A DNA stretch of 46,438 bases from a virus: positions 1-46,438 of IMG/VR virus record IMGVR_UViG_3300050138_000073, one strand, 5' to 3'. The translations under genes and the position numbers were made by a program. The notes beneath the pieces were generated by a model. That model searched no databases. It was not told the DNA's origin and worked only from the letters and a program-made list of their open reading frames with translations. This document shows positions 1 through 46,438 of this stretch, one piece after another (position 1 is the first letter of the stretch; each line of letters begins with the position of its first letter).

Positions 1-129
1 ATAGTTATACAGTTATACAAATTTGACCTTCCATGGGTCTTAATGAGAGGTAAAACCGACCGTCAAATGCCCTGTTAAATAACGTCAAATGCCATCGCAG
101 AACGTTAACTTGTATAACTGTATAACTAT
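1..129. repeat. 20-bp inverted repeat carrying GTTATAC boxes
   Basis: Bases 1-20 and 110-129 are perfect reverse complements (20 of 20). Each arm holds two GTTATAC boxes in tandem. A further GGTTATACAG lies at about 163-172. Inside the loop, GTCAAATGCC occurs at 62-71 and 84-93. Because the left arm begins at base 1, the repeat may continue beyond the window. The arrangement suits an operator array or replication iterons; which one cannot be decided from sequence. Confidence 0.7.
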
Positions 130-198
130 TTAATCTATCTTATTGAAAACACACACTAATTTGGTTATACAGTATTAATAACTTGGATATATAATAAG

Positions 199-590
199 TA
201 AGGTTAACAGCAGCGGACGTTTATTAACGGACGTGGTTAACAGGTAAGGTTAACACGTTTGCTTGCTTGCTTGGCGCCCTTAACCTTAATTTGTAACATT
301 AACAGACAGTCATTATTACGCGGGCGTTAACGTTAATTGATAACCCTAACCCTAGTTAATACCTGTGTCCTTAGTTCCATAAAACCCGTTATGCGAATTG
401 GCGTTAAGGTTAATGGTTATTTGATAAGTAAGGTTACGAATTAAGGTTAACGCACGCGTCATGTGGAGCTGGCGTTAAGGTTAATGATTAACGCTAACGG
501 GATACCGGCATTAAGGTTAACTGTTGACGCTACTTATTAACGGTAACGACCCGCCCCATACCCGGTTAACAGTTAACCCTACCGGCCGGC
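199..590. repeat. TTAAGGTTAA-type repeat cluster (left), non-coding
   Basis: This AT-rich stretch has no convincing gene. It carries many copies of a short motif in both orientations: TAAGGTTAAC at 199-208 and 245-254, the reverse form TTAACCTTAA at 280-289, GTTAAGGTTAA at 403-413 and 474-484, TTAAGGTTAA at 441-450 and 511-520, plus looser GGTTAAC and GTTAACG units up to about 580. The same motif recurs at 41.8-42.0 kb. Density, AT-richness and lack of coding suggest a replication origin or partition-like protein-binding array (inference). Confidence 0.7.
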
Positions 591-625
591 CCCGACCGCC
601 ATCAAAATCCGCTGCAAAAAATCGG

Positions 626-654
626 TTGACACAAAAACACGCCCGTGCCACACT
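626..654 (+). promoter_or_regulatory. Putative sigma70-type promoter of the rightward gene block
   Basis: TTGACA at 626-631 is followed after 17 bases by CACACT (649-654), a weak -10. The predicted transcription start is about 661, the A of the first ATG, and no Shine-Dalgarno sequence precedes that ATG, so the first message may be leaderless. It is the only promoter-like site I see before the long rightward block. Confidence 0.5.
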
Positions 655-660
655 CCCCAT

Positions 661-882
661 ATGAGCACCAAAGGCCAATTTATCAACGCTGCGATCAACC
701 GTCGAAAGATGGCTGATCTTCCTGTTAGACCAACTGACAAAGAGCGATCGAATTGTAGGCGGCGATTGGCAACTTTACAAACGGAGCTGGCAACCGTTCT
801 CGCGGATGTGAAAACGCTTCACTTCCCTTACGAAACGTTGAACCGTATCAGAGCCGCTCTCGCAAGGTCCAAACAGCCATGA
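661..882 (+). CDS. Small hypothetical protein, first gene of rightward block
   Basis: A 73-aa basic protein with no family I recognise. The middle (residues about 28-60) is rich in Leu, Arg and Glu and is probably helical or coiled. It starts immediately downstream of a TTGACA promoter, with no Shine-Dalgarno sequence, so translation may be leaderless. It ends in an ATGA overlap with the next small gene, which supports it being real and translated as part of a chain of short phage genes. Confidence 0.6.
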   Translation: MSTKGQFINAAINRRKMADLPVRPTDKERSNCRRRLATLQTELATVLADVKTLHFPYETLNRIRAALARSKQP

Positions 883-1013
883 CGCCCCAACAGGCCGCAA
901 TCAGATCGATCAATGACAGGATCAAAACGCTCAAAGTCCGGCGCAACGCCGACTTGGCGGAGATCAAACGGCTGGAAATGCGATGGCGCCAGATCAAGAG
1001 GATTGGGGTGTGA
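879..1013 (+). CDS. Tiny basic helical protein (44 aa)
   Basis: Starts at ATG 879 in an ATGA overlap with the previous stop and ends TGA 1011-1013. The 44 residues are rich in Arg, Lys, Ile and Leu with heptad-like spacing (LAEIKRLEMRW), suggesting one amphipathic coiled-coil helix. No family is recognised. Its perfect start and stop overlaps with both neighbours are the main evidence that it is a gene. The function is unknown. Confidence 0.55.
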   Translation: MTPQQAAIRSINDRIKTLKVRRNADLAEIKRLEMRWRQIKRIGV

Positions 1014-1396
1014 GCAACAAGCCGGAATTCAGGAACATATTTATTCTAACGTCGGCTTCGATCGCGGAGCTAGGCGTGCCGGACGTTGCGTTTTGCCTTG
1101 AGCAAGACCCGATGATCAGGATTATGATTTGGCGGCGGCTGGACCCGAAAGACCAATACGTTGCCATCGCGTTGCATCTCATGAACACGGGAAGCATTTA
1201 CGGGACAATCTTGCATCCCAAAGACGTGTTCGGATGGTTTGACAACACCGAAAACGTCGAGTATTCATGGGAGGCGAGCGACGCTCCATATTCCAAGCTC
1301 GGGGAATGGGCGTGGCAAGTTGTGGGCAGCACCGTAGTTGCTCTTGGTAACCTCGAAGATCGGGACAAACTCCCGACATATCAGCAAAGGAATTAA
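1010..1396 (+). CDS. Hypothetical protein (about 128 aa)
   Basis: I choose GTG 1010, which overlaps the preceding TGA (GTGA) and sits 8 bases after AGAGGA. An upstream in-frame ATG at 983 would add nine residues. The protein begins MSNKPEFRN, contains a mixed hydrophobic region (residues about 8-50) and a Trp- and acid-rich C-terminal half (FGWFDNTEN, GEWAWQVV). It has no signal peptide or clear membrane segment and no recognised family. It is followed within 3 bases by the next gene. Confidence 0.6.
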   Translation: MSNKPEFRNIFILTSASIAELGVPDVAFCLEQDPMIRIMIWRRLDPKDQYVAIALHLMNTGSIYGTILHPKDVFGWFDNTENVEYSWEASDAPYSKLGEWAWQVVGSTVVALGNLEDRDKLPTYQQRN

Positions 1397-1398
1397 CG

Positions 1399-2022
1399 AT
1401 GAAAGAGCTATCGATGACACCCGGCGCGATCTATACGCGGAACCGGCGTGCGGCGGCGAAGGCCAAGGTTGCTATTCCCTACGGGCGGGAAAAGGAACCT
1501 CACTACAACAAAAAGCAGCGAGCCGCCAACAAGGCCATTGATAACGCACAATCGCCGGCAGTCGAGAAAGCGATGGGTCAGTTCAAGGCCAAGCTTATTG
1601 ACATCAAGACGACGCCGCTCAATCGGGCTCGCAAGTTATTTGCGGCGAAGCTTGCGCAGGCATTCCCGGTCAAGAAGCGGCGGCGGCGTGACAACTATAA
1701 GTCCAAGGGGCACATGCATTACGCCGAATTGCTCTTGGCGTATAACGATATGCTGGGACAGAGAACCAGCTACGTCGCGGAAATGGAACGGTTGCGCGCG
1801 GAGAACGATGCGAACCGCAATGTCATAGATCACCAGCGGGCGGCAATCGAGGGTCGAGATCACGCCTATAAGGCGTTGACGAATGACTTGCAGCAAATGG
1901 CCAAGGGACGCACGGAGCTGACAATCCAGCTCGCGTCGGCTCACGCCGCCGCCAAACGTTGGAAGTTTACGGCTCATTTCATGGTCGGGCGCAGCGTTTC
2001 CGATTGGGACGAAACTTTGTAA
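1399..2022 (+). CDS. Basic coiled-coil protein of unknown function
   Basis: A 207-aa protein. The N-terminal half is strongly basic (an RRAAAKAK stretch near residue 18, KKRRRR near 92), suiting nucleic-acid contact. Residues about 120-190 form a predicted coiled coil (EMERLRAENDANR, then a run of Q, L, A and K). No catalytic motif is visible. The start ATG follows AAAGGAATTAACG, a reasonable ribosome site. It ends overlapping the ATG of the next gene by one base (TAATG). The function is unknown. Confidence 0.65.
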   Translation: MKELSMTPGAIYTRNRRAAAKAKVAIPYGREKEPHYNKKQRAANKAIDNAQSPAVEKAMGQFKAKLIDIKTTPLNRARKLFAAKLAQAFPVKKRRRRDNYKSKGHMHYAELLLAYNDMLGQRTSYVAEMERLRAENDANRNVIDHQRAAIEGRDHAYKALTNDLQQMAKGRTELTIQLASAHAAAKRWKFTAHFMVGRSVSDWDETL

Positions 2023-4358: not shown

Positions 4359-5996
4359 GTGTCACGTCTCAATCAACCGCTGACAAACCCGGCGCATTCG
4401 ATCCCCTCGATACATGCGCCTTGGGCGAGCGCCGATCGGTCAACGCCGATTGGCGCCGCTCAGCGGCCGACTGTGCATAAAGCCGAGGAAGTCAAGAAAC
4501 CCGTTTGGCAAGCGATTGAGGGCACGAGCCAAGAATTCGCGATAACGTCGGATGCCAATCACATTCTCTACACCGGCACGAGAGGCGGCGGTAAGACGGA
4601 TGTGCAGCTCATGCGCTTCCGTAGTCGCGTCGGGCAAGGCTATGGTCCGTTTTGGCGCGGTATCATCTTTGACGTTGAATACAAAAACCTTGACGATATT
4701 GTTGCGAAGTCTAAACGATGGTTCCCGCAATATAACGATGGCGCTCGCTTCTTAGAAAGCAAGGGCGACTATAAGTGGATTTGGCCAACGGGCGAAGAGT
4801 TGCTATTCCGAACGTTTGAGACGGAAAGTGATTACGACAAGTATCATGGCCACGAATACCCGTTTATTGGCTGGAATGAGCTTTGCAAGCAGATCAAGAG
4901 CGTCGGTTACGATGCCATGATGTCTTGCAACCGATCAAGCTTTACGGTCGAAAAAGACGCGCCGTTTGATCCGAAAACGCGCAAGCGAATTGACCTTCCG
5001 CCGATCCCGCTTGAATGTTTCAGCACAACTAACAGCTTCGGACCCGGCAGGTTGTGGGTAAAGCAACGTTTCATTGACCCGATTAAGATTGGCGACGTTT
5101 TACGCGTTGAAGTCAACATCTTCAATCCGCAAACGCAGCAACGGGAGAAGATTACACGTTCCCAAGTGACGATCTTTAGTCATTGGAAGGAAAATCGGCA
5201 TTTGTCGCCGCAATATATCGCGGAATTGTCGCTGATTACGGACCCAAACAAGAAAGCGTCATGGTTCGGCGGCTCTTGGGATATTGCCAGCGGCGGAGCT
5301 ATCGACGATCTATGGCGGCCGGCTTTTCACGTTGTGCCGAGGTTCAAAATCCCTGAAAATTGGTTCCTTGACCGATCGCTCGATTGGGGTAGCTCAAAGC
5401 CGTTTGCAATCGGCTGGTGGGCGGAAGCCAACGGCGAGGAAGTCACGTTGCCCAATGGTCGGCGTTGGGCGCCTCAACCGGGCTCATTGATCCAATGCGC
5501 CGAATGGTATGGCTCGCCGGCTATCGGCTCTCAGGAAGGCTTGCGCATGTCTTCCAAGACGGTTGCAGAAACCGTCGTTAAATTCGAGGCGGATATGCAG
5601 CGGCTAGGATGGTTCGCAAAACGTCCGTGGGGCGGCCCGGCTGACAATCAAATCCGCCAAGTGTCCGATCCCGGTTCCGACACGACTGAAAAGTTGATGG
5701 CGGAGGCCGGTTGCCATTGGGGCGAAGCTGACAAGTCGCCAGGATCACGAGCGATCGGTTTACAGGTTATCCGTGATCGGCTAGAAGCGGCATTGAAGCA
5801 TGAAGGTCCGGCGCTCTATTTTATGGACAATTGCCGGGCGTCAATTTCGACAATTCCTAATTTGCCGCGAGACGCCGACAAGCCAGACGACGTTGATACC
5901 AAGGCGGAAGATCATGCGTATGACATGGTGCGCTATCGGTGCTTGGCAGGATCATCGCGCATAGCCGGGAGCATTCCGGCGAGCTGGCCAACGTAA
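4359..5996 (+). CDS. terL: Terminase large subunit
   Basis: The 545-aa packaging ATPase/nuclease. Walker A is GTRGGGKT (residues 73-80). The Walker B region reads YPFIGWNE (167-174), with Asn where Asp is usual and the catalytic Glu kept. A C-terminal RNase H-like nuclease is indicated by the acidic strand LDWG (D342) and the C-terminal EDHAYDMVRY (D518/D522). The start is probably GTG 4359, directly after the preceding TAG with no clear ribosome site, implying translational coupling; an in-frame GTG near 4470 is a weaker alternative. It pairs with the upstream small subunit and downstream portal. Confidence 0.9.
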   Translation: MSRLNQPLTNPAHSIPSIHAPWASADRSTPIGAAQRPTVHKAEEVKKPVWQAIEGTSQEFAITSDANHILYTGTRGGGKTDVQLMRFRSRVGQGYGPFWRGIIFDVEYKNLDDIVAKSKRWFPQYNDGARFLESKGDYKWIWPTGEELLFRTFETESDYDKYHGHEYPFIGWNELCKQIKSVGYDAMMSCNRSSFTVEKDAPFDPKTRKRIDLPPIPLECFSTTNSFGPGRLWVKQRFIDPIKIGDVLRVEVNIFNPQTQQREKITRSQVTIFSHWKENRHLSPQYIAELSLITDPNKKASWFGGSWDIASGGAIDDLWRPAFHVVPRFKIPENWFLDRSLDWGSSKPFAIGWWAEANGEEVTLPNGRRWAPQPGSLIQCAEWYGSPAIGSQEGLRMSSKTVAETVVKFEADMQRLGWFAKRPWGGPADNQIRQVSDPGSDTTEKLMAEAGCHWGEADKSPGSRAIGLQVIRDRLEAALKHEGPALYFMDNCRASISTIPNLPRDADKPDDVDTKAEDHAYDMVRYRCLAGSSRIAGSIPASWPT

Positions 5997-6005: not shown

Positions 6006-7598
6006 ATGGCTGTAGCAGGTAAGCCCGGCGCGCTCGCACGTAGCAAAACGGCGGTCAGGGGTAACAACAAAGCAGCGGCCGGCGCAGCGGCCGGACCAAA
6101 CGTTGAGTTTGTCCGCAATGAACTATCGACGTTGATCATGTCCTATGATCTCATTCGCGATTGTCTCGGCGGCGAGGAAATTGTCAAGAAAGCGCAAACG
6201 AAGTATTTGCCGATGCCTAATCCGTTGGATCAAGGCCAAGAGAATTTACTTCGTTACGAGAATTACTTGCGTCGAGCGATCTTTTACAACGTCACGGCGC
6301 GGACCCTATCGGGCCTTGTTGGCCAAATCTTCCTTCGGCCGCCGGTCGCCAAGTTACCAACAAATCTTCAAATGGTGTGCGACGATTGCACGGGTGAGGG
6401 TGTGCCGGCCGATCAGCTCGCCAAGTCAACGGCGAATTACGTGCTTGCCTACGGTCGAGCTGGCTTGATGGTCGATTATCCCGACATGGCGCAGCCGGCG
6501 TCGGTAGCGGAGATCACGGCCGGCACGATCCGCGCGACGTTCAAGCTCTTTGCCCCTTGGGACGTGATCAACTGGCGCACGATCAAGCGTGGCGCCGAAG
6601 TAATTCTTTCCCTGGTCGTGATCGAAGAGGGCTTTCACGCTCGCGATGACGGCTTCGAGGTCCAGCTTGGCGTTCAATGGCGTGTCTTGCGGCTCTTGCC
6701 CCAAGGCGACGATCCTACGGCGCCGTGGACGGCACAAATCGAGATTTGGCAGGGGAGCGCGCAAGGCGGCTATACCAACACACAGATATTCTACCCGCGT
6801 GATGTCAACGGGCAGCTCCTAACCGAATTGCCGTTCACATTTGTAGGTAGCGAGAACAACGCCAGCAATCCCGACAATCCGCCACTGTCGGATATGGCGC
6901 ATTTGAACATGGGCCATTATCGCAATTCAGCCGACTATGAGGAAAGCTCCTACATGGTCGGTCAGCCAACGCCGTGGGTTTCCGGCGTTACCAAACAATG
7001 GATTGACGACGTTTTCAAAGGGAGAATTCAGCTTGGCTCAAGAGCAATCATTCCACTTCCAATTAATGGTGCGGCCGGCTTACTACAGGCGTCCCCTAAC
7101 ATTATGCCGAAGGAAGCAATGGACGCCAAAGAAAGGCAAATGGTTGCCCTTGGCGCTAAGCTTATTCAGCAAGCAACTGTCCAGCGAACCGCTACTGAGA
7201 CTGACATTGAGAACACGGCAGAAAGCTCAACGCTTGGCGCGTCGGCTAAGAACGTCGCAGCGGCGTTCCAATTCTGTTTCAAATGGGCCGCTCGTTTCAT
7301 GGGCGGGGCGGTTGACGGGATTAGCTACTCGCTAAATACCGAATTCGATTTGACGTATATGGATTTCAACGAACTGTTGGCCATCGTCAAAGCTTGGCAA
7401 GCTGGCGTGCTCACCGATCCTGAGATCAGAGACAATCTCCGCCGGGCTGGCCTTGCAACAGAAGACGACGCCACGGCGCTTCCGGTCATGAAGGCCAAGG
7501 CCGCCGCCGCTCTTGAAGCATTGAAGCCGGCCGCGCCGGCTCCCAACTTGGGCGGTGATCCCGCCAAGACAGGCCATCCCGCCAACAACGCCAACTGA
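6006..7598 (+). CDS. Portal protein, DUF4055 type
   Basis: A 530-aa portal with AAGGA seven bases before ATG. The N-terminal Ala-rich tail is followed by an alpha/beta body, and the recognisable DUF4055 block PPLSDMAHLNMGHYRNSADYE lies near residues 295-317, followed by GQPTPWVSGV. The C-terminal segment after about 440 is helical and ends in an Ala/Pro linker. It should form the dodecameric vertex that docks the terminase and the connectors. Position right after TerL and before scaffold and capsid is canonical. Confidence 0.85.
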   Translation: MAVAGKPGALARSKTAVRGNNKAAAGAAAGPNVEFVRNELSTLIMSYDLIRDCLGGEEIVKKAQTKYLPMPNPLDQGQENLLRYENYLRRAIFYNVTARTLSGLVGQIFLRPPVAKLPTNLQMVCDDCTGEGVPADQLAKSTANYVLAYGRAGLMVDYPDMAQPASVAEITAGTIRATFKLFAPWDVINWRTIKRGAEVILSLVVIEEGFHARDDGFEVQLGVQWRVLRLLPQGDDPTAPWTAQIEIWQGSAQGGYTNTQIFYPRDVNGQLLTELPFTFVGSENNASNPDNPPLSDMAHLNMGHYRNSADYEESSYMVGQPTPWVSGVTKQWIDDVFKGRIQLGSRAIIPLPINGAAGLLQASPNIMPKEAMDAKERQMVALGAKLIQQATVQRTATETDIENTAESSTLGASAKNVAAAFQFCFKWAARFMGGAVDGISYSLNTEFDLTYMDFNELLAIVKAWQAGVLTDPEIRDNLRRAGLATEDDATALPVMKAKAAAALEALKPAAPAPNLGGDPAKTGHPANNAN

Positions 7599-8351: not shown

Positions 8352-9317
8352 GTGGCTCTTTCCGATCTTTCCGTATTCAGCGAGTATGCTTATCTCGCCG
8401 CAACCGAGGTCTTGGCGCAGCAAATTGACTTGTTCAATGCTGCGTCCGATGGCGTCATTACGTTGACGGTCAAGGGCCGCCAGGGTGATTTCAGCGACGA
8501 GATTTATTTCGCCAAGATCGCCGGCATTGTCCGCCGACGCAATCCCTATGGTTCCGGCGCCGTCACGGAAAAGGTTCTCAAGCAACTTGACGACGTGAAG
8601 GTGAAGGTTGCGGCCGGCACGCCTCCGATCCGCCTCGATCCCGCTCAGTGGCGTTGGATCATGATGGACCCGGCAACGGCTGGCGCCGCGATGGGTCAAC
8701 AGATCGCCGTTGAGACGTTGGCGGACATGCTCAACACGGCAGTCGGCGCCACGACCGGCGCTCTTATCAATGAGGGCGCGACCGTCACCAACGATATGTC
8801 GGGCGTCGGCACGGGGATCGTGGCATTTTCCGATTTCGTGACTGCGCAGCAATTGTTCGGTGATTATTCGTCGGCAATTCGCGCTTGGATCATGCATTCG
8901 AAGCCGATCGGTGACTTGTGGAAAAATGCAATCACCAACTCGGAATTTCTGTTCAATTACGGCAACGTCGCCGTGACGCGCGATCCCTTCGGGCGTATCT
9001 TTGTCGTCTCGGATATTCCGGCGCTCGTGATTGCCGGCACGCCAACGTATGCAACGCTTGGTCTCGTGCCGGGCGCCGTTTACGTCGAGCGTTCCGACGA
9101 TTTCGACGACAACTATTCGACGCTCAACGGCAATGAGAACATCACGCGGACCTATCAGGCCGAATGGAGCTATTCGCTCGGCATCAAGGGTTACGCATGG
9201 GACAAGACCAACGGCGGTCACGCGCCCACGGACGCGGCTCTCTTCACGGGAACCAATTGGGATAAGATCAGCACGTCAATCAAGGATACGGCTGGCGTTG
9301 TTCTGATCTCGAAGTAA
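8352..9317 (+). CDS. Major capsid protein
   Basis: A 321-aa protein after the scaffold gene, with start GTG 8352 set by AAGGA at 8340-8344. It has a composition and layout suiting an HK97-fold shell protein: helix-rich N-terminus, an extended DFSDEIYFAKIAGIVRRRNPYG loop, helical LADMLNTAVGATTGAL, and a beta-rich C-terminus (VAVTRDPFGRIFVVSDIP). The family of the fold is inferred from position and pattern, as I see no diagnostic short motif. It is expected to be the most abundant structural protein. Confidence 0.85.
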   Translation: MALSDLSVFSEYAYLAATEVLAQQIDLFNAASDGVITLTVKGRQGDFSDEIYFAKIAGIVRRRNPYGSGAVTEKVLKQLDDVKVKVAAGTPPIRLDPAQWRWIMMDPATAGAAMGQQIAVETLADMLNTAVGATTGALINEGATVTNDMSGVGTGIVAFSDFVTAQQLFGDYSSAIRAWIMHSKPIGDLWKNAITNSEFLFNYGNVAVTRDPFGRIFVVSDIPALVIAGTPTYATLGLVPGAVYVERSDDFDDNYSTLNGNENITRTYQAEWSYSLGIKGYAWDKTNGGHAPTDAALFTGTNWDKISTSIKDTAGVVLISK

Positions 9318-26671: not shown

Positions 26672-26903
26672 TTTCACCCTCATAGTAGACTTCTAGCAAG
26701 ACGGGAGGATGCACGGTTCCCATAATTGATAGGACGATGCGACCGCCGGCCATAAGCTTCGTGACCTCTAAAGGCGTCGGCTCCCATGCCGATTGCATGA
26801 AGTTCTTTCCGTGTGCGATAATGTCTCGAATGCACAAGACGTTATATTCCGGCTGGTTTTTTGCCAGCTCTCGCGTTGTTCCAAGTATCCGTTTGCTGAT
26901 CAT
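26655..26903 (-). CDS. Hypothetical protein downstream of DNA polymerase
   Basis: Start chosen at ATG 26903, which overlaps the polymerase stop (ATGA). The 82-aa product has an N-terminal helical region (ILGTTRELAKNQPEYNVLCIRDIIAHGKNF) and a strand-rich end (GRIVLSIMGTVHPPVLLEVYYEGEN). No motif is recognised. Coupling to the polymerase suggests a replication-related role, but that is inference. Confidence 0.6.
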   Translation of the reverse strand: MISKRILGTTRELAKNQPEYNVLCIRDIIAHGKNFMQSAWEPTPLEVTKLMAGGRIVLSIMGTVHPPVLLEVYYEGENDGGI

Positions 26904-30083: not shown

Positions 30084-30303
30084 AGTATTCGCATCCATTC
30101 ACGATGATAGGGGCCGGCGGCCGGCAACCGTTGAGTTTGCATAGCTCGTGCTTTTCGTCCCAATGAACGCAGTCGATGCACGATGGCCAGCACGCGCGAA
30201 GTGATCGCGGCGACTGCCCCATTTGATCGTATAGAGCCGACGCTATGACAGTGGCAACACGATTGATCGTCTGCTGTCTTGCCTTATCTTGTTCACCACT
30301 CAT
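30064..30303 (-). CDS. Small Cys-rich (zinc-binding) protein
   Basis: A 79-aa product from ATG 30303, nested in the end of the helicase gene by 11 bases. It shows CWPSCIDCVHW (residues about 38-48), LCKLNGC (54-60) and a final GCEYY, enough for one zinc knuckle or treble-clef-like site. The N-terminal 35 residues form a helix. Small zinc proteins of this type are common in phage replication blocks. The function is unknown. Confidence 0.6.
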   Translation of the reverse strand: MSGEQDKARQQTINRVATVIASALYDQMGQSPRSLRACWPSCIDCVHWDEKHELCKLNGCRPPAPIIVNGCEYYDTIPF

Positions 30304-31885
30304 AGGACATTACCTCGGGATATTTCTTGTTGACCCAAACTCTGATTTGTTTGGGCGCGCGGCAATCATTGACCCAATTCATGGCTTCATCGGTTGTCGG
30401 CGGCGGCTCGCTGTGATGGCGTTGGCGCCACCAATCGCGAGCTTTCTTGCCGGCAAATCCAGGGTGTTGAAGTAGCAGCCATTCGTTGAACATGCGAAGG
30501 CCGCAAAAGTAACTAACGCGAATGGAGGGCGGCGAACCGGCTTTCTCGTATCTCGTATAGATCACGCGGTCAACGTCAAATAACTCGAATAGCGGAAAGT
30601 CCCCCTTGATCAATTCTTGTGTGTCAGCCGTTTTAACAATCTTGTTCTGAAAGTGGAATTCAGCACCGCATGAGATGCAAAATCTAACACTCGCATGGTT
30701 ATACGTGCCGCAAGTCTCACAAATCTTAACGGGCGCATCGCCTTGTGCTTCGCCTTTTTTCTTCGGAATGATCGGATCATTGATCGGACCTAAGCGCCTC
30801 GTGTTGCCGGCAAAGTCCATAACCAAACAATTCGCCTTGCCCGTCGCTGGCGACGGTCGCGTGCCACGCCCTAGCATTTGGACCCATAGGCCCGGCGACA
30901 TGGTAGGGCGCAGCATCGGGATCATGTCAATTTCGGGATCGTCAAACCCTGTCGTGAGAACATTGTTGTTTGTTATGCAACGCAGCCCGCCAGCCTTGAA
31001 GGCCCGAATACGTTCATCGCGCAACTCGCCGGGTATCTTGGAATGCACTGCGGCGGCGGCCACTCCCATCCACGATAGAACGGTTGCGACCTTTTCGGCG
31101 TGCTCGATACCGCTGCAAAAGGCCAGCCACTTCCGCCGATTGGAGCCCCACTTGCAAATTTCCTCGCATACGGCTTGTGTGAGGCTATCGGTTCCGACCG
31201 CCTCTTGAAGCTGTCCAAGCGTGTAATCTCCATTTGTGATCCCCACCTTGCTAATATCATATTCGGTGTTAGGCCGCTTCGGGATCAACATGCTAATCCA
31301 GCCTTCGGCTAGAAGCCTATTAAACCCGTCAACATTGCAAGCGTTGAAACAAAGATCAGTAAACAGGCCGCCGTCAGTAATGCGACCATGCCCAAGTCGG
31401 AACGGTGTTGCTGACATGCCAATGACACGAAGATACGGATTGACCTTGCGCAGCTCGTCAATAATGATACCATACATTCCCGTTGCGTTGGGGTTGAGCA
31501 AGTGGCATTCATCGATGAACAACAGATCGATATGCCCGAATATCTCAACGTTATTGTAGACGCTGGCAACGCCGCCAAACGTGATCGGATATTGAGTGTC
31601 TTTACGTTTTAGGCCGGCGGAGAAAATGCCCATTGGCGCCAGCGGCCAAACTTCGATCATTTTGCCGGCATTTTGCGCGATCAATTCCTTGACGTGTGTT
31701 AGGATCATGAACCGCTGCGTTGGCCACATGCGCAACACTTCGGTGATGAACCACGCCGGTATCAGCGACTTGCCGGTTCCTGTGGGCAATGCAATCACGG
31801 GGTTGCCACGTCCGCCGCCGTTGAAGTAATCCCAAATGGATTGAACGGCTGCGATCTGATAGTTGCGTGGGACCGGAGCGCTCAT
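30293..31885 (-). CDS. SF2 DEAD/DECH-box helicase with zinc ribbon
   Basis: Start chosen at ATG 31885, which overlaps the nuclease stop (ATGA). The 530-aa product has Walker A PTGTGKS (34-40), DECH box (125-128), SAT (158-160) and motif VI QMLGRGTR (336-343). Cysteines C389, C392, C403 and C406 form a zinc ribbon after the helicase core. Related phage enzymes are DNA helicases for replication or annealing; a restriction-type helicase is less likely without a methylase. It sits in one operon with polymerase, clamp and nuclease. Confidence 0.92.
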   Translation of the reverse strand: MSAPVPRNYQIAAVQSIWDYFNGGGRGNPVIALPTGTGKSLIPAWFITEVLRMWPTQRFMILTHVKELIAQNAGKMIEVWPLAPMGIFSAGLKRKDTQYPITFGGVASVYNNVEIFGHIDLLFIDECHLLNPNATGMYGIIIDELRKVNPYLRVIGMSATPFRLGHGRITDGGLFTDLCFNACNVDGFNRLLAEGWISMLIPKRPNTEYDISKVGITNGDYTLGQLQEAVGTDSLTQAVCEEICKWGSNRRKWLAFCSGIEHAEKVATVLSWMGVAAAAVHSKIPGELRDERIRAFKAGGLRCITNNNVLTTGFDDPEIDMIPMLRPTMSPGLWVQMLGRGTRPSPATGKANCLVMDFAGNTRRLGPINDPIIPKKKGEAQGDAPVKICETCGTYNHASVRFCISCGAEFHFQNKIVKTADTQELIKGDFPLFELFDVDRVIYTRYEKAGSPPSIRVSYFCGLRMFNEWLLLQHPGFAGKKARDWWRQRHHSEPPPTTDEAMNWVNDCRAPKQIRVWVNKKYPEVMSYEW

Positions 31886-32760
31886 AGTGGAATATCCGTG
31901 ATCGGAACATGCGACGTGCATCCTTTCGGTATCTCGGATGCCGGGATTGTCGCGCTCCATTTGTTGCAGTGCCATTCGGCGTTAGCGATCGGAACGGCAA
32001 ATTTGCACGAGCGGCAATTGTGCTCGACAACGGCGCCGTCGAAACAAATGTCAGAGTGCGGGCACATCTTGCATTTCCAATATGTCTTTTGCTGCGCAAT
32101 CCGTGCTGGCGCGACGGGTGACATAATCACATATTCGGCTCGCCGGGCATATTCGGCGCCAATCGTATGATCCAACGGGACCACTTCAATGTGCAAGTCA
32201 TCGTCATTCTTGTTCACGACCATATAGATTGCAAAGCGAAAGCCATAGAGAACGCCATAGCAGCACATTTGAGCATAGTGTTGCTCGTTAGTAACTCTCA
32301 CCCCGAGTTCACGGAGCTTATTAAATCCCGAGCCAGTAGCCTTTGTCTTAAATTCGCACAAGAGACGTTCGGACACTGCATATCGTCCAGGCGACAAACC
32401 GCGACCATCAAACGACCCGCCGAAGTGCCCAAGGACCGCGCTAACTCTGTGTTGCTTACCGTCTGTATCAACGTCGTGAATTTCAAAACCGATACCACGC
32501 AAATACTCAACAAATCTTTCTTCCTCGCGATGTCCACGGTTGAACAATCGCAACATTCTAGCTTCGAATAATTCATGTTTGACCCATCGGAAAATATACC
32601 AAAGATGACGCGAGCATTCGTGACCGATAAGCGACGCGCCTAAGTGCGTCCGCCGCTCGCCCTGAAAGGTCGCTGTGCAATAAGCGTCAATATCTGTCTT
32701 GATCCACTCCGCCAGGAGCTTGCAAGCCCCTGGCGTCGTTAGGTCGAGCTGTTGACGCAT
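31882..32760 (-). CDS. Cas4/RecB-like PD-(D/E)XK exonuclease with probable Fe-S cluster
   Basis: Start chosen at ATG 32760; a longer reading would extend inside the upstream gene. In the 292-aa product, GSFD (D118), CEFKTK (E136, K138) and QHYAQ (Q164) form the nuclease core of the RecB/Cas4 branch. C49 (HECSRHLWY) plus C230, C233 and C239 (CKMCPHSDIC) match the four-cysteine Fe-S pattern of Cas4 and AddB. A second Cys set follows (C249, C252, C265). It likely makes single-stranded ends for the nearby Sak4-like annealing protein. Confidence 0.85.
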   Translation of the reverse strand: MRQQLDLTTPGACKLLAEWIKTDIDAYCTATFQGERRTHLGASLIGHECSRHLWYIFRWVKHELFEARMLRLFNRGHREEERFVEYLRGIGFEIHDVDTDGKQHRVSAVLGHFGGSFDGRGLSPGRYAVSERLLCEFKTKATGSGFNKLRELGVRVTNEQHYAQMCCYGVLYGFRFAIYMVVNKNDDDLHIEVVPLDHTIGAEYARRAEYVIMSPVAPARIAQQKTYWKCKMCPHSDICFDGAVVEHNCRSCKFAVPIANAEWHCNKWSATIPASEIPKGCTSHVPITDIPL

Positions 32761-33554: not shown

Positions 33555-34229
33555 CTACTTTGTCCCTGTTACTTTGCGGAAGATATAGTTGAGGTCGGCG
33601 GGCTCCCATTCCGCAAGCATTCCCGACCGATCTTTGGCATCGTGTTGATGATCTGGCTTTGTCCGTAATGCGCGATACTCTTGGCCTTGCGCATCCTTCC
33701 CGACGTTAAGTTGAAACAACTCGTCAAAGAAGTAAGGCATTCGCTGCGTTAGAACGCGACCGGGCATAGACGGGCGCCATTTAGTCAAGCCCGTTGCTTC
33801 CTCTTTGTCCCATTCTTGCTGCGCCGTGAAATAAACGTTAGGTCCATCGAGATCGCGGAGTGAACGAAAGACTGCCATGATCTTTTCATTCGTTTGACCG
33901 TAAGCGGCGCGACCGTCTTTGTTCATTTGTTTTTCAGACGTTAAACACGTCTCGGCAATCTCCGTCATACTATCAACGCAAAATGTTCCGAATTGCCGCG
34001 CTTCGGCGCTTCCGATAATCCAGGCGTGAATACCTTGTAATTCTGGAAGCGTCTTAACTTCAACGTAAGGAATTCTCCATCGCCGTAGCGAGAGCAATCC
34101 CTTTTCCGCTGAGATAACAAACGGTGACGGAGCTGTCGCACACAGCACCGTCTTTCCGCTTCCCGCCATCCCGTAAACGCCAGCTTTCACGCCGCGAACG
34201 ACCCAATCGCTGGTTGATTGAATAATCAT
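33555..34229 (-). CDS. Sak4-like RecA-fold ATPase (AAA_24), annealing protein
   Basis: A 224-aa protein with Walker A GMAGSGKT (20-27) and Walker B region FCVDSMTE (83-90), the AAA_24 or Sak4 type. Sak4 proteins are shortened RecA relatives that promote single-strand annealing together with a phage SSB, which fits the DUF669 and nuclease genes around it. The start ATG is coupled to the previous gene by an overlap. It is unlikely to be a full RecA because it is too short and lacks the C-terminal domain. Confidence 0.85.
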   Translation of the reverse strand: MIIQSTSDWVVRGVKAGVYGMAGSGKTVLCATAPSPFVISAEKGLLSLRRWRIPYVEVKTLPELQGIHAWIIGSAEARQFGTFCVDSMTEIAETCLTSEKQMNKDGRAAYGQTNEKIMAVFRSLRDLDGPNVYFTAQQEWDKEEATGLTKWRPSMPGRVLTQRMPYFFDELFQLNVGKDAQGQEYRALRTKPDHQHDAKDRSGMLAEWEPADLNYIFRKVTGTK

Positions 34230-35122: not shown

Positions 35123-35302
35123 ATGACGGAACGTTCAACTCGCTTTAGCGAGCGTATCAACGTCAGTATTGACGAGAAACAAAACATGTTACTTGTCGAA
35201 TTGAGGGCCAAACTCGAAAGAGTTTACTGTAAGCGTATGTCCTATGCCGAAGTAATGCGGGAGGCCATACACGCTTTGGCTCGTGCCCACAATCTGATCT
35301 AG
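35123..35302 (+). CDS. Ribbon-helix-helix (Arc/CopG-like) DNA-binding protein
   Basis: A 59-aa gene directly right of the palindrome, with AAAAGG ten bases before ATG 35123. The sequence has the layout of a small RHH protein: a short strand RFSERINVSIDEK (residues about 7-19) followed by two helices, QNMLLVELRAKLERVY and SYAEVMREAIHALARAH. Such proteins bind as dimers to inverted repeats. It overlaps the next gene by one base, so it should be co-transcribed with the primase. It likely regulates this divergent region, which is inference. Confidence 0.75.
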   Translation: MTERSTRFSERINVSIDEKQNMLLVELRAKLERVYCKRMSYAEVMREAIHALARAHNLI

Positions 35303-37650
35303 TGTCGTTTGACAATATCCCTATCGAGCTTAGGGATTATCACCAATGGGTAGTCTGGAAATACGATGAGACGGCCGAAGGTAAACCTACCAAGCCGCCG
35401 TATCAAGCAGTAAATCCGAATAAGCTCGCCAGCGTTACAGACGCTACCCAATGGGCCAGCTACGATCAAGCAGTAACCGCCAGCTCTTGGGCGAACGGTA
35501 TTGGCTTTGTTGTGACTGCGGACTGCCCTTATACATTCATTGATCTTGACGAAAGCACCGATCCGGTTGTGATCGCCAAACAAAAACAGATTTACGAGAC
35601 GTTCCAAACCTATAGCGAATTCAGCCCGTCCGGTAACGGCTTGCATTTGATCGTGCGTGGCAAGGTTCCGCACGGTCGCCGTTACAAGAAAATCGAGATA
35701 TACCCTAGCGGCCGTTTCATGACGGTTACAGGCAACGTCTATCAAATGGCGCGGCCTATTGCCGATCGCCAAGAGATGCTCACAACGTTGTTTGAAGAGA
35801 TGGGGCAACTTGTCGGCGGTCAACCGATCTCGCATCAAGGCGACGCTCCGCAAACAGTGGACGATAACGCCATTTACACGATGGCAATGGCAGCGGCTAA
35901 CGGTGCTCGTTTCGAGGCGCTATGGAATGGCCGATGGTCAGAGACGATAGACGCACGAACCGGCACGCCTTACGCCAGCCAATCGGAAGCCGATCTTGCG
36001 CTAATGAATATGCTTGGCTTCTATTCGCAGAATGCCGAACAAATGACGCGTATGTTCCACACGTCGGGGCTTGGCAAGCGCGAGAAAGCCAAACGTCAAG
36101 ACTATCTCGGATGGATGATCTCAAAAGCATTTGACAAGTTACCGCCGCCGATTGACCTCGATCTAACGTCGGATAAGTTACGCGCTCAAGTCACAGAGAG
36201 CGTGCGGGCGGAGCTGGTCGCCAAGGTCCAGCCGGCGTTGCCAATGGTCGCCGCCGGACCCTACAGCGTGCCGCCGCCGGGCCTTGTCGGCAGGATCGCG
36301 AATTGGTGCTACATCGCCTCGCCTCGCCCCGTGCCAGAGATTGCTCTGGCCGCCGCGATCGCCTTCATGTCCGGCATATGCGCCCGGCAGTATAACGTCA
36401 GCTCGACCGGGCTCAACCAATACATCGCATTGATCGGCACAACCGGCGTCGGCAAGGAAGCGATGGCAAGCTCTATCGATCGGTTGATGTCCGTGTGCAT
36501 GAACCAAGCGCCGGGGATCATGGAATTTCGCGGCCCGGCGGAGATTGCCAGCGGTCAAGCACTCGTCAAGTATCTGGAAGACAAGCCGTGCTGCTTTTCA
36601 ATCATTGGTGAATTCGGTTACAAGCTCCAACTGCTATCATCCGATCGCGCCAACTCCGCCGACATAATGTTGAAGCGTATCTTGCTCGACCTATACGGCA
36701 AGAGCGGATCAACACAAGCTTACTATCCCATGATTTATGCGGACGCGTCAAAGAATACCGGCGTTCTCTATGCCCCGGCATTCACGTTGCTTTGTGAGGG
36801 CACGCCGAAAACGTTCTATGCCAACGTCAATGAGCGTATGATCGAAGATGGATTGTTGCCGCGCTTCACCGTTATTGAATATCTAGGTAAGCGTGTGCCC
36901 ACAAATCCAAACGCCTTTACCGTTGTTCCGTCGCCTGAATTGATACAAGAGATATGCGACCTTGTTGTGACGGTCGGCATGATCTTTGCCGCCAAGAAAG
37001 TTTGCAACGTTGAGCAAACACCGGAAGCCAAAGAATTCACGCATGAGTTTGACTTGTATTGTGATGCTCAAATCAATAATTCCGAGAGTGAAGTCACCAA
37101 ACAATTATGGACCCGCGCCTATCTAAAGGCGTTGAAGGTGGCAGCGATTATTGCCGTTGGCGTTGACCGGCTTAACCCCATGATCACACTCGACATAGCA
37201 CGTTGGGCGAAGGGGCTGATACTTCACGAGGTTAAAACATTCATCGAACGTTTCGACGCTGGCGAGATGGGATCGGCCGCCGCCATCTATGGCCGTAATG
37301 AAACGGCTCAAGTCCGTGAGATTGCTAAGGTAGCTGTCAAGTATCTAATGACCGACTATTCGGAATTGAAAGCGTATAAGACAGACGTTGACTATCATGT
37401 CAACCATATCATACCTTACTCATACTTACTGCAACGGTGCTCGCGTCTGTCTGCCTTTGCAAACGATCGTCTGGAAGTCTCAATTACAATCAAGCGCTCG
37501 CTGCAATACCTCGTGGACGTTGGCGTGATCGTCTTGCTCAACACCCGATCGCCAGCATGGCGGGCGCAATGGGGAACTAAAGGCGCAGCCGCGACACTTT
37601 ACTTCGTGGCGGACTTTGACAAGCTCAAGGAAATGGCCGGCAAAGTCTAG
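35302..37650 (+). CDS. Primase-polymerase fused to DUF3987-like helicase ATPase
   Basis: A 782-aa protein from GTG 35302. Archaeo-eukaryotic primase (AEP) motifs are FIDLDES (D81, D83), SPSGNGLH (H115) and IEIY (E132). A helical-bundle domain like that of phage NrS-1 PrimPol spans about 228-280. A DUF3987-type ATPase follows: Walker A GTTGVGKE (379-386), Walker B FSIIGEF. This makes primers, and perhaps DNA, and probably unwinds the fork. The stop shares a CTAG with the convergent membrane gene. Confidence 0.88.
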   Translation: MSFDNIPIELRDYHQWVVWKYDETAEGKPTKPPYQAVNPNKLASVTDATQWASYDQAVTASSWANGIGFVVTADCPYTFIDLDESTDPVVIAKQKQIYETFQTYSEFSPSGNGLHLIVRGKVPHGRRYKKIEIYPSGRFMTVTGNVYQMARPIADRQEMLTTLFEEMGQLVGGQPISHQGDAPQTVDDNAIYTMAMAAANGARFEALWNGRWSETIDARTGTPYASQSEADLALMNMLGFYSQNAEQMTRMFHTSGLGKREKAKRQDYLGWMISKAFDKLPPPIDLDLTSDKLRAQVTESVRAELVAKVQPALPMVAAGPYSVPPPGLVGRIANWCYIASPRPVPEIALAAAIAFMSGICARQYNVSSTGLNQYIALIGTTGVGKEAMASSIDRLMSVCMNQAPGIMEFRGPAEIASGQALVKYLEDKPCCFSIIGEFGYKLQLLSSDRANSADIMLKRILLDLYGKSGSTQAYYPMIYADASKNTGVLYAPAFTLLCEGTPKTFYANVNERMIEDGLLPRFTVIEYLGKRVPTNPNAFTVVPSPELIQEICDLVVTVGMIFAAKKVCNVEQTPEAKEFTHEFDLYCDAQINNSESEVTKQLWTRAYLKALKVAAIIAVGVDRLNPMITLDIARWAKGLILHEVKTFIERFDAGEMGSAAAIYGRNETAQVREIAKVAVKYLMTDYSELKAYKTDVDYHVNHIIPYSYLLQRCSRLSAFANDRLEVSITIKRSLQYLVDVGVIVLLNTRSPAWRAQWGTKGAAATLYFVADFDKLKEMAGKV

Positions 37651-39652: not shown

Positions 39653-39929
39653 TTAACATCCTCCATTTGCACCGTTCCAACAATCCAATAACCGGCAACA
39701 AGTTATTGGTTACTTTGCTCGCTACTTTGAATGACGTGCAAACACAATCCTCGTCATCAAGCCAGCTAAAGCAAATGACTAAGTTTTCGAGAGGGTGACA
39801 CTTGCCGCTGTCAATCTCGCGTAGCATTTGGATCAATGCATCACGCGGCGTCCATGCCGAGGCGCGATCCTCTTTCTCGGCGCGAAACTCCGTTATCGAG
39901 ACGGGCGCGTCTTTGAACTCGTCAGCCAA
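39645..39929 (-). CDS. Hypothetical protein (94 aa), TTG start
   Basis: I choose TTG 39929, which overlaps the MazG-like stop (AAGGTG about ten bases upstream); the longer reading from 40010 lies inside that gene. The product has DAPVSITEFRAEKEDRASAWTPRDALIQMLREID, a pattern I associate with small phage proteins of unknown role, then LVICFSWLDDED and a C-terminal VTNNLLPVIGLLERCKW. No motif is catalytic. Confidence 0.6.
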   Translation of the reverse strand: MADEFKDAPVSITEFRAEKEDRASAWTPRDALIQMLREIDSGKCHPLENLVICFSWLDDEDCVCTSFKVASKVTNNLLPVIGLLERCKWRMLND

Positions 39930-40302
39930 GTTGGTTATACACCTTATGACGTTTCTTGATCTTGGCGTAATTGAGATTGGCCAACTCTTCCAGCCCGATC
40001 CCAAACTCACGGGCGAGAGCTGTTATATACCAGAGACAATCTCCCATCTCGTCAATGATTTCAGCCTTGCGCTTAGTGACGGCAGGATCAACCGGCCGTG
40101 TGCAAGTGAATGAGTCGCCGCAGATGTCAATCTTTTCATCGCGCAACGCTTTCTTCCACTTGTTGCAATTCTCGCCAGCTTCGCCGGCAAGTGCGACAAT
40201 ACAGTAGTTGACGCCTTCGTTACTGCCGATGCCAGGATAGTAGGCTTGCGGAAACGTCTTGTCTTCGTATTCAGTCAGCGTCGTTATACGCGTCGCACTC
40301 AT
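39922..40302 (-). CDS. MazG-like nucleotide pyrophosphohydrolase
   Basis: Start ATG 40302 follows GGAG by seven bases. The 126-aa product has the MazG pattern: ALAGEAGENCNKWKKALRD (residues about 37-55, ExxE) and EIIDEMGDCLWYITALAREFG (ExxD, about 84-104) joined by a loop. MazG enzymes hydrolyse NTPs or modified nucleotides; phage forms are thought to adjust the host nucleotide or alarmone pools. It is part of the leftward accessory operon. The only GANTC I found in the window (40112-40116) is in this gene. Confidence 0.85.
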   Translation of the reverse strand: MSATRITTLTEYEDKTFPQAYYPGIGSNEGVNYCIVALAGEAGENCNKWKKALRDEKIDICGDSFTCTRPVDPAVTKRKAEIIDEMGDCLWYITALAREFGIGLEELANLNYAKIKKRHKVYNQLG

Positions 40303-40558
40303 TGACAATCTCCACTGCTTTGTGATTGTGAAATGCCCACAGACTGACTTTGTTGATATGGGCCTTGTCTTCGCGGCTCATGTAATTGAAATTGAGCGTG
40401 CGAATTCGCTTGTTGGTATCGAGATCATAGACATAGACAATCACGGGCAAGGGCTTATGTTGATGCCCTTCCCGTTGATTGGCCTGTCGTTGGCGGGCTC
40501 TGAAATTACGCTGGCGGTTTACTTCCGCCGGGTAAGGTGAGCTGTCAATCGTCGCCAT
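40271..40558 (-). CDS. Hypothetical basic protein (95 aa)
   Basis: Start chosen at ATG 40558 (40561 is an equal alternative), with GGGG close upstream. The product is basic at the N-terminus (RQRNFRARQRQANQRE) and then strand-rich (LPVIVYVYDLDTNKRIRTLNF), ending with an acidic tail (ECDAYNDAD). No family is recognised. It overlaps both neighbouring genes. Confidence 0.55.
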   Translation of the reverse strand: MATIDSSPYPAEVNRQRNFRARQRQANQREGHQHKPLPVIVYVYDLDTNKRIRTLNFNYMSREDKAHINKVSLWAFHNHKAVEIVNECDAYNDAD

Positions 40559-43048: not shown

Positions 43049-43061
43049 CCCATTGGAGCGA

Positions 43062-43951: not shown

Positions 43952-43975
43952 CAAGGCGCCAGGATCGGCGCCTTG
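43952..43975 (-). other. Intercistronic GGCGCC hairpin
   Basis: CAAGGCGCC (43952-43960) pairs with GGCGCCTTG (43967-43975) around a six-base loop. It separates the 43989-44201 gene from the clamp-like gene. The surrounding sequence resembles that around 43024-43048. Confidence 0.75.
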
Positions 43976-43988
43976 CTTCATGGAACGA

Positions 43989-44541: not shown

Positions 44542-44731
44542 GAAATTGACTGTTAGCTGATCGCTGATCAAAGCAAGTCGAGCCGTTCCATCGATAGGCT
44601 TGCGCAAGCTCTTGGCGTGAGCATGTGGCCAGTGCAAGCCTTGCCGTGCTGGCGTGGCTTGCCGCAAGCTCTTGCGCCTCTTCGCGGTCGCGGAAGGCGT
44701 CTAAGATCCATTGAACCATTGACTTGAACAT
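44534..44731 (-). CDS. Small helical protein (65 aa)
   Basis: Start ATG 44731, with CGGAGTTATTCAC upstream, the same ribosome-site pattern as other genes in the operon. The product is mainly helical (MFKSMVQWILDAFRDREEAQ, then ELAASHASTARLALATC). Its N-terminus could sit at a membrane surface. No family is recognised. It follows the hairpin at 44758-44778. Confidence 0.55.
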   Translation of the reverse strand: MFKSMVQWILDAFRDREEAQELAASHASTARLALATCSRQELAQAYRWNGSTCFDQRSANSQFHG

Positions 44732-44757
44732 GTGAATAACTCCGGTTTGAGAAACCA

Positions 44758-44778
44758 TCGGCGCCACTATGGCGCCGA
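44758..44778 (-). other. Intercistronic GGCGCC hairpin with competing outer stem
   Basis: TCGGCGCC (44758-44765) pairs with GGCGCCGA (44771-44778), loop ACTAT. A second, competing stem joins AACCATCG (44753-44760) and CGATGGTT (44788-44795). It lies between the DUF932 gene and the 65-aa gene. Confidence 0.7.
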
Positions 44779-44805
44779 GGTATTAAGCGATGGTTGCCGA
44801 CCGCC

Positions 44806-45915
44806 TTAAAATGCTAGCTCGACAATCTTGCTTGCAATGCGCTCCATCGCCACGCGGTCGCCAGCGTTTGGCAAGTCCCGTGCAATTTCCGTCAAGCCGT
44901 TGGAATAGCCCCATGCCGAACGTGGCGAGCCATACCACTCGGAATGTTCCTCCGCGATTGCGTAGGCGCGTTCTGCCGTCTTTTGGGGAAGTCCAAGCTT
45001 GGACATTGAAAAGATAGCATCGAGAACGGAAGCCTTGTCGGTTCCGAGATTGTAATCCATCGCGCGTTGGATTTTAAGCTCGTCGGTCGCGGCGGAGTTG
45101 TTCGCGTAGCTTATCAGTTTTCCCTTAAGCTGGCCAAAGGCGCGGCTAGCAGCATCACCTACATGTCGCACGCGTAACTCGCTAACGTTCTCGGCATTCC
45201 ATACCATATGGTTGCCGCAAATGTAGCTGTATAGAAACGTCATGAAACCGAAAACGCTTGATCCGACTTCGCTATTCCACGCGAAGAAGCCGCGCGACAT
45301 TCCGCCAGCTTTCTTTTCGAAAATGCGCCGATCGTTATCGACGAAGAACGAAAAGCAATCGCGATCGCCAGCATATTGACCGCGCGAGCCGTCAAACGCC
45401 GCTGGCGCTTCCTGCCATCCGGTCCCGTTGTTCTTAAGCTCGACAAGTCGAGCCGTAATATCGGAATTCCAAATCCGATCGTAGCGATCGGACGTGATAG
45501 CGCGAATTGTGGGCACAGCTTGAACGCCGCTGATCATTTGCGCCGTCAAGCTAGGCGCGTCTAATCCGGCTCGCTGTATCAAGAGCCGTGACGTTCCCGT
45601 GCTGGCTTTCAAGCCATTGTTCAAGCAATCGGCCGCGAGCGTTGCCGGCAATGTGCGCAAGTAAGCGGCTGGGGCGTCAGCACGGTTTGCGAGTTGCCCA
45701 AAAGCCCAATTGGTAAGCATGGCTTTCGAAGTCTTGCCGTTCAACAAAACGGCGCCGTCAACGGCTTCTGCATGTAAGCTCTTGTCTTCCAGGGTAGCGG
45801 CGCCGCACAAGGCGCGCTCGCCAGCGCAAAAGGAATGCATCGCCTCGATCGAGGGGAAGCGCTCGTCAGCCGGCCGCGAAGCCCATTGATTTGATGCTTT
45901 TGTTAGAGTTGTCAT
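44806..45915 (-). CDS. DUF932 (TIGR03299-like) phage/plasmid protein
   Basis: Start ATG 45915, preceded by AGGAG; a longer reading from 45948 is less likely. The 369-aa product matches the DUF932 pattern found in phages and plasmids: YLRTLPATLAADCLNNG, VPTIRAITSDRYDRIWNSDI, then DRDCFSFFVDNDRRI and the C-terminal YGSPRSAWGYSNGLTEIARD. Function is unknown. It is the first gene of the leftward early operon and is probably made early. The message leader holds a GCGGCAA hairpin. Confidence 0.8.
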   Translation of the reverse strand: MTTLTKASNQWASRPADERFPSIEAMHSFCAGERALCGAATLEDKSLHAEAVDGAVLLNGKTSKAMLTNWAFGQLANRADAPAAYLRTLPATLAADCLNNGLKASTGTSRLLIQRAGLDAPSLTAQMISGVQAVPTIRAITSDRYDRIWNSDITARLVELKNNGTGWQEAPAAFDGSRGQYAGDRDCFSFFVDNDRRIFEKKAGGMSRGFFAWNSEVGSSVFGFMTFLYSYICGNHMVWNAENVSELRVRHVGDAASRAFGQLKGKLISYANNSAATDELKIQRAMDYNLGTDKASVLDAIFSMSKLGLPQKTAERAYAIAEEHSEWYGSPRSAWGYSNGLTEIARDLPNAGDRVAMERIASKIVELAF

Positions 45916-45930
45916 AGCGAATTCTCCTAA

Positions 45931-45946
45931 GCGGCAACATTGCCGC
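45931..45946 (-). promoter_or_regulatory. Leader hairpin upstream of DUF932 gene
   Basis: GCGGCAA (45931-45937) and TTGCCGC (45940-45946) form a seven-base inverted repeat a few bases before the AGGAG ribosome site at 45924-45928. It could tune translation of the operon. Confidence 0.4.
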
Positions 45947-45948
45947 AC

Positions 45949-46438
45949 GCCTTACGTAGCAAGAGGCAATCGATTTGACAAGCCCAAACTTTTCAGAATT
46001 AACTTATGGTTGACAGATCATTAATTCCCACATTAGGATTGCTCGGATCGATTGTAAGGCCATTAGGAGCCTCGTGGACGGCTTTTTTGCTTTTGCGCTA
46101 GGTAGCTAGCTCGGAAACAATGTTGGCTTTTCGTTCTGTTTATTATAGATGTTAGGTAACGTTTTGTTAACCATGCGCGATTGTGTAAACATTGTGCAAT
46201 TTGTTGTGTGCAATGTGCTGGCAATTCGAGTTGTCTGCATTAACCGTCATTAATATCGTGTTAATTTGTTGTCAATTATTTGATTTGTTCATTTTACTTT
46301 TATTTGACGGGATTTGTTCGGGATTTGTTAACCGATTTGATTAGTGGCTTTTTACGCTAAGTCATTGAAAAGTCTGTATAACTTTTTTCTTCTTTGTTTA
46401 CAGTCGGTTAACCTAAGCAGTTCAAAAGTTATACAAGC
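45949..46438. promoter_or_regulatory. AT-rich non-coding control region with terminal GTTATAC inverted repeat
   Basis: No gene is supported here. TGTATAACTTTT (46375-46386) and AAAAGTTATACA (46424-46435) form a 12-base inverted repeat that continues the GTTATAC theme of bases 1-20 and 110-129. Plus-strand TTGACA boxes occur at 45975 and 46010, exactly 35 bases apart. A leftward TTGACA near 46270 could begin the early operon. If circular, this merges with bases 1-660. Confidence 0.5.

Follow-up and report, generated by a model that had tools for sequence, protein, structure and literature searches.

Avoidance of restriction sites is well known, and CcrM, the GANTC methylase of Alphaproteobacteria, is usually taken to be an orphan regulatory enzyme without a partner nuclease. 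GANTC is the recognition site of HinfI and GTAC is that of RsaI. Depletion of GANTC has already been described in pelagiphages, about half of 33 of which are affected (PMC9516812). GTAC restriction is documented in an alphaproteobacterium: Rhodobacter blasticus 28/5 has methylation at GANTC as well as GTAC and produces the GTAC-cutting enzyme RsaI (PMC6256690). Here we describe a phage genome, the IMG/VR virus record IMGVR_UViG_3300050138_000073, that has lost both words. The whole record of 46,438 bp was analysed and is called the window below.

GANTC occurs once in the window, where 178.8 sites are expected from base composition, 188.9 from a first-order Markov model and 125 from a maximal-order Markov model. 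A preliminary description of this DNA, made by reading the letters by eye, had reported the near-total absence and had placed the only site, a GAGTC, in a MazG-like gene; the exact count agrees on both points (Table 1). As a strict null, synonymous codons were shuffled 300 times within 48 genes (39.4 kb), which preserves every protein and the codon usage. Under this null the coding part would hold 85.2 ± 7.6 sites (range 67-108), against the one that it has. GANTC is the lowest of the 256 motifs of the form xyNzw, with a ratio of 0.012, and the second-lowest is at 0.51. Apart from the single site, GANTC is missing from all three codon phases. An Asp-Ser pair creates GANTC when serine is encoded by TCN. 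In such pairs 18 serines use AGY codons and 1 uses TCN, whereas the remaining serines use TCN 547 times and AGY 283 times. Because of the shuffle null, the absence from all codon phases and the Asp-Ser codon bias, we conclude that the depletion is at the level of nucleotides, not of amino acids or codon choice.

GTAC is absent altogether. The synonymous-shuffle null predicts 84.4 ± 7.1 sites and the Markov model 89.8, and GTAC is the lowest of the 256 tetramers, with the next one at 0.42. In addition, 22 of the 57 hexamer palindromes with an expectation of at least 4 (about 40%) are near-absent from the window. The avoided words, GANTC, GTAC and many hexamers, are palindromic sites of known type II enzymes. 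The preliminary description had regarded the loss as specific to GANTC; the loss of GTAC and of the hexamers contradicts this and weakens an explanation by CcrM alone. Its observation that GAATTC and GATC remain frequent was correct (29 and 403 sites), and GATC is in fact over-represented (215 expected). CGATCG, GGCGCC and GCCGGC are also in excess.

By sequence, the window can be placed with the Sphingomonas and Paracoccus phages in a KL1/73-like group of siphophages, since it shares with them a clade of the terminase large subunit (TerL) tree (15 sequences with support 96/88, or 17 with 100/98) and replication genes, the best DNA polymerase matches being the Paracoccus phage vB_PmaS-R3 (R3) and the Sphingomonas phages Birtae and Kimi. 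Its nearest relatives, two short contigs of one metagenome, are L006 (TerL 72%) and L078 (DNA polymerase 67%). Both are also without GANTC (observed/expected 0/32 and 0/28) and GTAC (0/14 and 0/12). The Sphingomonas phages Lucius, Kharn, Eidolon, Kimi and Birtae, together with R3, hold 0-8 GANTC sites where 91-246 are expected and 0-2 GTAC sites where 68-165 are expected. The Variovorax, Pseudomonas Baskent_P4_1 and Stenotrophomonas phages keep both words and possess 7-deazaguanine genes; their DNA is probably modified. These QueC carriers are poor host controls and were replaced by unmodified phages of hosts outside the Alphaproteobacteria, namely KL1 (Burkholderia), 73 (Pseudomonas), phiAxp-1 (Achromobacter) and Langgrundblatt1 (Xanthomonas). 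All four retain GANTC (0.55-0.83 of expectation) and GTAC (0.89-1.75), with 15-30 of 47-51 hexamer palindromes near-absent; in the Sphingomonas and Paracoccus relatives 22-42 of 44-54 are near-absent. Among relatives without 7-deazaguanine genes, both words were thus lost by 6/6 Sphingomonas and Paracoccus phages and by 0/4 Burkholderia, Pseudomonas, Achromobacter and Xanthomonas phages. This comparison with related phages of known host supports the link to CcrM-bearing Alphaproteobacteria that had been proposed from the window alone. From these relatives and the word signature, the host of the window phage is probably alphaproteobacterial.

On the TerL tree, the 16 sequences that have lost GANTC require two changes, one in the clade of 15 that holds the window and one in R3. 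The TerL sister of R3, which has lost both words, is KL1, which has kept both, and the tree fits either a regain of sites in KL1 or a separate loss in R3. GTAC is the more changeable of the two words, as in a subclade (L009, L013, L022 and L030) that lost GANTC and kept GTAC. GATC, in excess in the window, is nearly absent from Lucius, Kharn, Eidolon, Kimi and R3. Kimi (GATC 0) and Birtae (GATC 451) were both isolated on Sphingomonas strain LR55. Since they differ in GATC on one strain, the sites that a phage has lost seem to reflect its earlier host range rather than the isolation host. A scan of genomes with TerL for a host gave one hit, L097 (NZUN01000056.1), a phage contig in a metagenome-assembled genome labelled as Gammaproteobacteria. 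It groups with Lucius in the TerL tree and has GANTC at 1/84 and GTAC at 0/46. Because of this grouping and its alphaproteobacterial word signature, L097 is probably misbinned, and the signature could serve to flag other contigs of this kind.

Phage-borne protection of GANTC or GTAC has no detectable gene in the window: the N6/N4 methyltransferase, Dam, D12 and QueC families gave no match, including with the profiles PF01555, PF05869 and PF02086. VPv64, Baskent_P4_1 and the Stenotrophomonas phage do have QueC. Within the phage family, the fraction of hexamer palindromes that are near-absent is 0.03-0.24 in QueC carriers, against 0.10-0.78 in the others (Mann-Whitney p=0.001). The relatives with QueC (L008, L025, L026, L037, L039 and L040), which belongs to the 7-deazaguanine pathway, hardly avoid hexamer palindromes, whereas those without it often do.

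One relative, L017, has a cytosine-N4-type methyltransferase gene with a TSPPYN motif within its replication module (L104:2648-3424, the contig of L017, IMGVR_UViG_3300025875_000047). The gene lies directly before that for the AAA_24 ATPase, and none is found at the equivalent spot in the window. L017 keeps GTAC (15/36), and its TerL sister Birtae has none. The only further contig found with this methyltransferase gene, L127, has kept GTAC too (20/19). M.RsaI, which protects GTAC, is an N4-methylcytosine (m4C) methylase, and the m4C-type enzyme of L017 may protect GTAC in the same manner. L017 was also considered as an exception, a phage with a methylase and yet without GANTC; this was rejected, as the TSPPY motif of its enzyme and the matches to cytosine-N4 methylases make that enzyme unlikely to be an N6-methyladenine methylase of GANTC.

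The same words could be followed in unrelated phages of Alphaproteobacteria. Three Roseobacter phages are practically without both GANTC and GTAC: RDJL1 (0/255 and 1/62), RDJL2 (1/113 and 0/30) and RDJL3 (3/109 and 0/39). The pelagiphage HTVC011P has lost GANTC (0/45) and retained GTAC (38/54). HTVC010P and HTVC011P, which share one host strain, lack different words, CTNAG (0/128) and GGCC (0/24) in the former, and GATC (0/38) as well as GANTC in the latter. As a reference for the host level we used sixteen 20-kb stretches from CcrM-bearing chromosomes, in which GANTC has a median observed/expected ratio of 0.28 (0.16-0.63) and GTAC one of 0.88 (0.19-1.44). Phages with their own methyltransferases behave differently from the window. 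The methylase of Ochrobactrum phage OC has been shown to shield GANTC from HinfI (PMC7139368), and the GANTC ratio of this phage is 0.73. Relatives of the OC enzyme occur in the Ruegeria phages DSS3-P1 (GANTC 0.80) and V16 (0.71) and in Loktanella phage pCB2051-A (0.51; 53% identity to the OC enzyme). RcSalem, with a CcrM-like gene, has a ratio of 0.57. For DSS3P8 and 7-7-1, whose GANTC-type methylases are tabulated in PMC5537653, the ratios are 1.01 and 0.56. pCB2051-A and RcSalem have kept GANTC and have no GTAC (0/63 and 0/20). Total loss of GANTC was found in 10/13 alphaproteobacterial phages without a GANTC-type methyltransferase and in 0/9 with a known or likely one (Fisher p = 0.0005), or in 7/10 and 0/8 after close relatives were merged (p = 0.004), in a sample that is small, hand-picked and without tree correction. 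As the methyltransferase carriers mostly keep GANTC at or above the host level, methylated GANTC appears to be tolerated by these phages. Phages able to protect their DNA tend not to purge sites, as expected under selection by restriction.

We consider it likely that type II restriction by the hosts selected for the purging of GANTC and GTAC from the window phage. This reading fits best because GTAC, which is no CcrM target, has been lost equally, because methyltransferase-carrying phages keep GANTC and because relatives with DNA-modification genes avoid far fewer palindromes. The phage DNA would enter the host unmethylated. The hosts would be Alphaproteobacteria with CcrM, which methylates their own GANTC sites; an enzyme cutting unmethylated GANTC would therefore damage the invader but not the cell, as would a system of the RsaI type at GTAC. 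Every remaining site would carry a risk of cutting, and site-destroying mutations, mainly synonymous ones, would be fixed until none were left. Having neither methyltransferase nor deazaguanine genes, the phage would have site loss as its defence. The GANTC-cutting nuclease might be a solitary enzyme sheltered by CcrM.

Several observations weigh against selection by restriction. phiLM21 has a verified GANTC methyltransferase and yet a GANTC ratio of 0.13, near the host level, and R6L, in which a CcrM-like domain makes such an enzyme probable, is at 0.18, again near that level. EE36P1, HTVC010P and, in part, phiCbK keep GANTC, and our search for methyltransferases detected none in them. The comparisons across phages are only partly corrected for relatedness. 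No host enzyme that cuts GANTC was found in a search for CcrM-like methylases among 398 Pseudomonadota. About 128 CcrM-bearing genomes each hold a single CcrM-like gene at E<=1e-60, and HinfI-type operons with a CcrM-like methylase of their own are therefore uncommon there. The pelagiphage survey reports no restriction-modification system in the hosts (PMC9516812).

Other searches for candidate enzymes were made in hosts. Weaker CcrM-like matches were considered as HinfI-like systems and rejected among those inspected; by eye and from general knowledge, these look like DpnII/MboI-type (GATC) systems or small unknown ones. A search for the PabI family (GTAC) had no match in hosts, but none in the controls either. 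Homologues of the phage methylase on alphaproteobacterial plasmids had no adjoining nuclease gene in the annotated one of two records. In two Pseudomonadota (L115:1669-3066 and L118:1929-3394), a CcrM-like methylase of 285-305 aa adjoins a gene of about 180 aa. The neighbour genes have a common GGIGGG start, and that of L118 has an EVK-type motif. This pair could possibly be an undescribed small restriction-modification system.

The phage could instead evade CcrM methylation or GcrA binding and so stay free of the host's cell-cycle control over transcription or replication, which we regard as unlikely. GcrA recognises methylated GANTC, and CcrM does not act on GTAC. The loss does track CcrM-bearing hosts, and the published pelagiphages, half of them depleted, infect hosts without any restriction system that was noticed (PMC9516812). 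The simultaneous loss of GTAC and many hexamers means that not only CcrM sites are concerned, and the phages that methylate their own GANTC, OC (where this is verified, PMC7139368), DSS3-P1, V16 and pCB2051-A, retain many of these sites. The preliminary description offered three causes: methylation-dependent control by CcrM, SOS-like sensing and restriction at GANTC. Of these, restriction fits best, whereas control by CcrM is less likely, as it leaves both GTAC and the methylase carriers unexplained.

It is quite improbable that the window reflects a general avoidance of palindromes by a lytic phage facing numerous restriction systems, in which GANTC and GTAC would only be the most conspicuous examples and Alphaproteobacteria would play no particular part. 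The many hexamer palindromes missing from the window and from its Sphingomonas and Paracoccus relatives would be expected in that case, as would the subclade that lost GANTC and kept GTAC, and the difference in GATC between Kimi and Birtae on one host strain. The relatives from other hosts, which avoid hexamers equally strongly, keep both GANTC and GTAC, and host lineage therefore matters for these two words. That the phage merely carries over the mild GANTC shortage and the codon or dinucleotide habits of alphaproteobacterial genomes is barely credible: chromosomes of CcrM bearers are indeed GANTC-poor, as already published (PMC3973325) and as our stretches agree, but the loss is not inherited from hosts, because GANTC in the window is about 50-fold below their level and they are not short of GTAC, and, given the synonymous-shuffle null, neither codon usage nor protein sequence can be its source.

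The window phage is a lytic-type siphophage and distant kin of KL1 (Kilunavirus) and of Septimatrevirus. The terminase, portal, capsid and tail genes lie on a single strand and are followed by those for DNA polymerase A, clamp, helicase, exonuclease, annealing ATPase and primase (Table 1), an arrangement that resembles those of KL1, 73 and the Sphingomonas phages. A search for tRNA genes found none in the window, and no integrase was noticed among the window proteins searched. The ResIII/Helicase_C gene encodes a phage replication helicase, annotated in the relatives too, and no restriction enzyme. The left end of the window carries an inverted repeat pair (1-23 and 107-129, within 1-129). Two distant direct repeats of 25-26 bases lie at 429-453/41865-41889 and 1645-1670/33064-33089.

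Table 1. Position, strand and supporting evidence of features in the window.
Feature	Position	Strand	Evidence or remark
Terminase large subunit	4359..5996	+	Used for the tree of relatives
Probable portal protein	6006..7598	+	67% identity to L006; portal position in relatives
Major capsid protein	8352..9317	+	~60% identity to KL1 and Septimatrevirus phages
Family A DNA polymerase	26900..28924	-	PF00476, E=7e-72; closest to R3, Birtae and Kimi
Superfamily II helicase, ResIII and Helicase_C domains	30293..31975	-	Domain match; annotated as a replication gene in relatives too
AAA_24 ATPase, Sak4-like position	33555..34229	-	Domain match
Primase/helicase, NrS-1-like polymerase domain	35302..37650	+	Domain match
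MazG-like nucleotide pyrophosphohydrolase, home of the sole GANTC	39922..40308	-	Pfam PF03819, E=7e-7
Sole GANTC site, GAGTC	40112..40116	+	Exact count; spans GAC-TCA (Asp-Ser) of the minus-strand MazG-like gene

At least three phage groups of CcrM hosts, unrelated to one another, have lost GANTC, and the loss is complete in none of the sampled phages with GANTC methylation of their own. This suggests that something in CcrM hosts attacks unmethylated GANTC. Tentatively, one might go further: Alphaproteobacteria may widely carry nucleases for unmethylated GANTC as a defence against phages shared by the lineage, with CcrM as the self-protection that shields the cell, and phages would either erase GANTC (the window, Sphingomonas, Paracoccus and Roseobacter phages) or carry a GANTC methylase. 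Why phages of Alphaproteobacteria often carry such methylases becomes a directly testable question, and viral contigs from metagenomes might be assigned to hosts by their combined lack of GANTC and GTAC.

Restriction-site avoidance as described for prokaryotic viruses (PMC6286503) is likewise a genome-wide loss, at the nucleotide level, of short palindromic type II sites in viruses without their own methyltransferase. The window differs in losing a 5-base gapped site and a 4-base site together and near-totally, and the cutting enzyme is in this case inferred; when the study's main text was searched for the words GANTC, GTAC and Alphaproteobacteria, none of them was found. The depletion in pelagiphages and in a prophage region of Pelagibacter (PMC9516812) is similar: there too, depending on the clade, phages of a CcrM host nearly lack GANTC throughout their genomes. 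That depletion mainly concerns SAR11 podoviruses, whereas the window is a siphophage near Sphingomonas and Paracoccus phages and has lost GTAC too. Neither the joint loss of GTAC nor the methyltransferase contrast was found in the literature searched. The RsaI system of R. blasticus 28/5 combines methylation of GANTC and GTAC with cutting of GTAC; no GANTC nuclease is reported for it (PMC6256690).

Lucius, Kharn, Eidolon, Kimi, Birtae and R3 are like the window in the gene order of the main modules, in TerL (54-58% identity) and in holding only 0-8 GANTC and 0-2 GTAC in 42-46 kb. Five of these six are also without GATC, whereas it is over-represented in the window and in Birtae, and a megablast of the window's first 25 kb showed no DNA-level similarity to these six and only a 73-base match against phages. 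KL1 and Pseudomonas phage 73 (Septimatrevirus) share the siphophage type, the lack of deazaguanine genes and the strong hexamer avoidance, but they keep GANTC (83/152 and 86/130) and GTAC (147/94 and 106/103) and avoid GATC instead. Phage GANTC methyltransferases have earlier been interpreted as regulatory mimicry (PMC5537653). OC and phiLM21 methylate GANTC, as DSS3-P1 and pCB2051-A are predicted to do, whereas the window has neither the methyltransferase nor the sites; both would be ways to survive in CcrM hosts.

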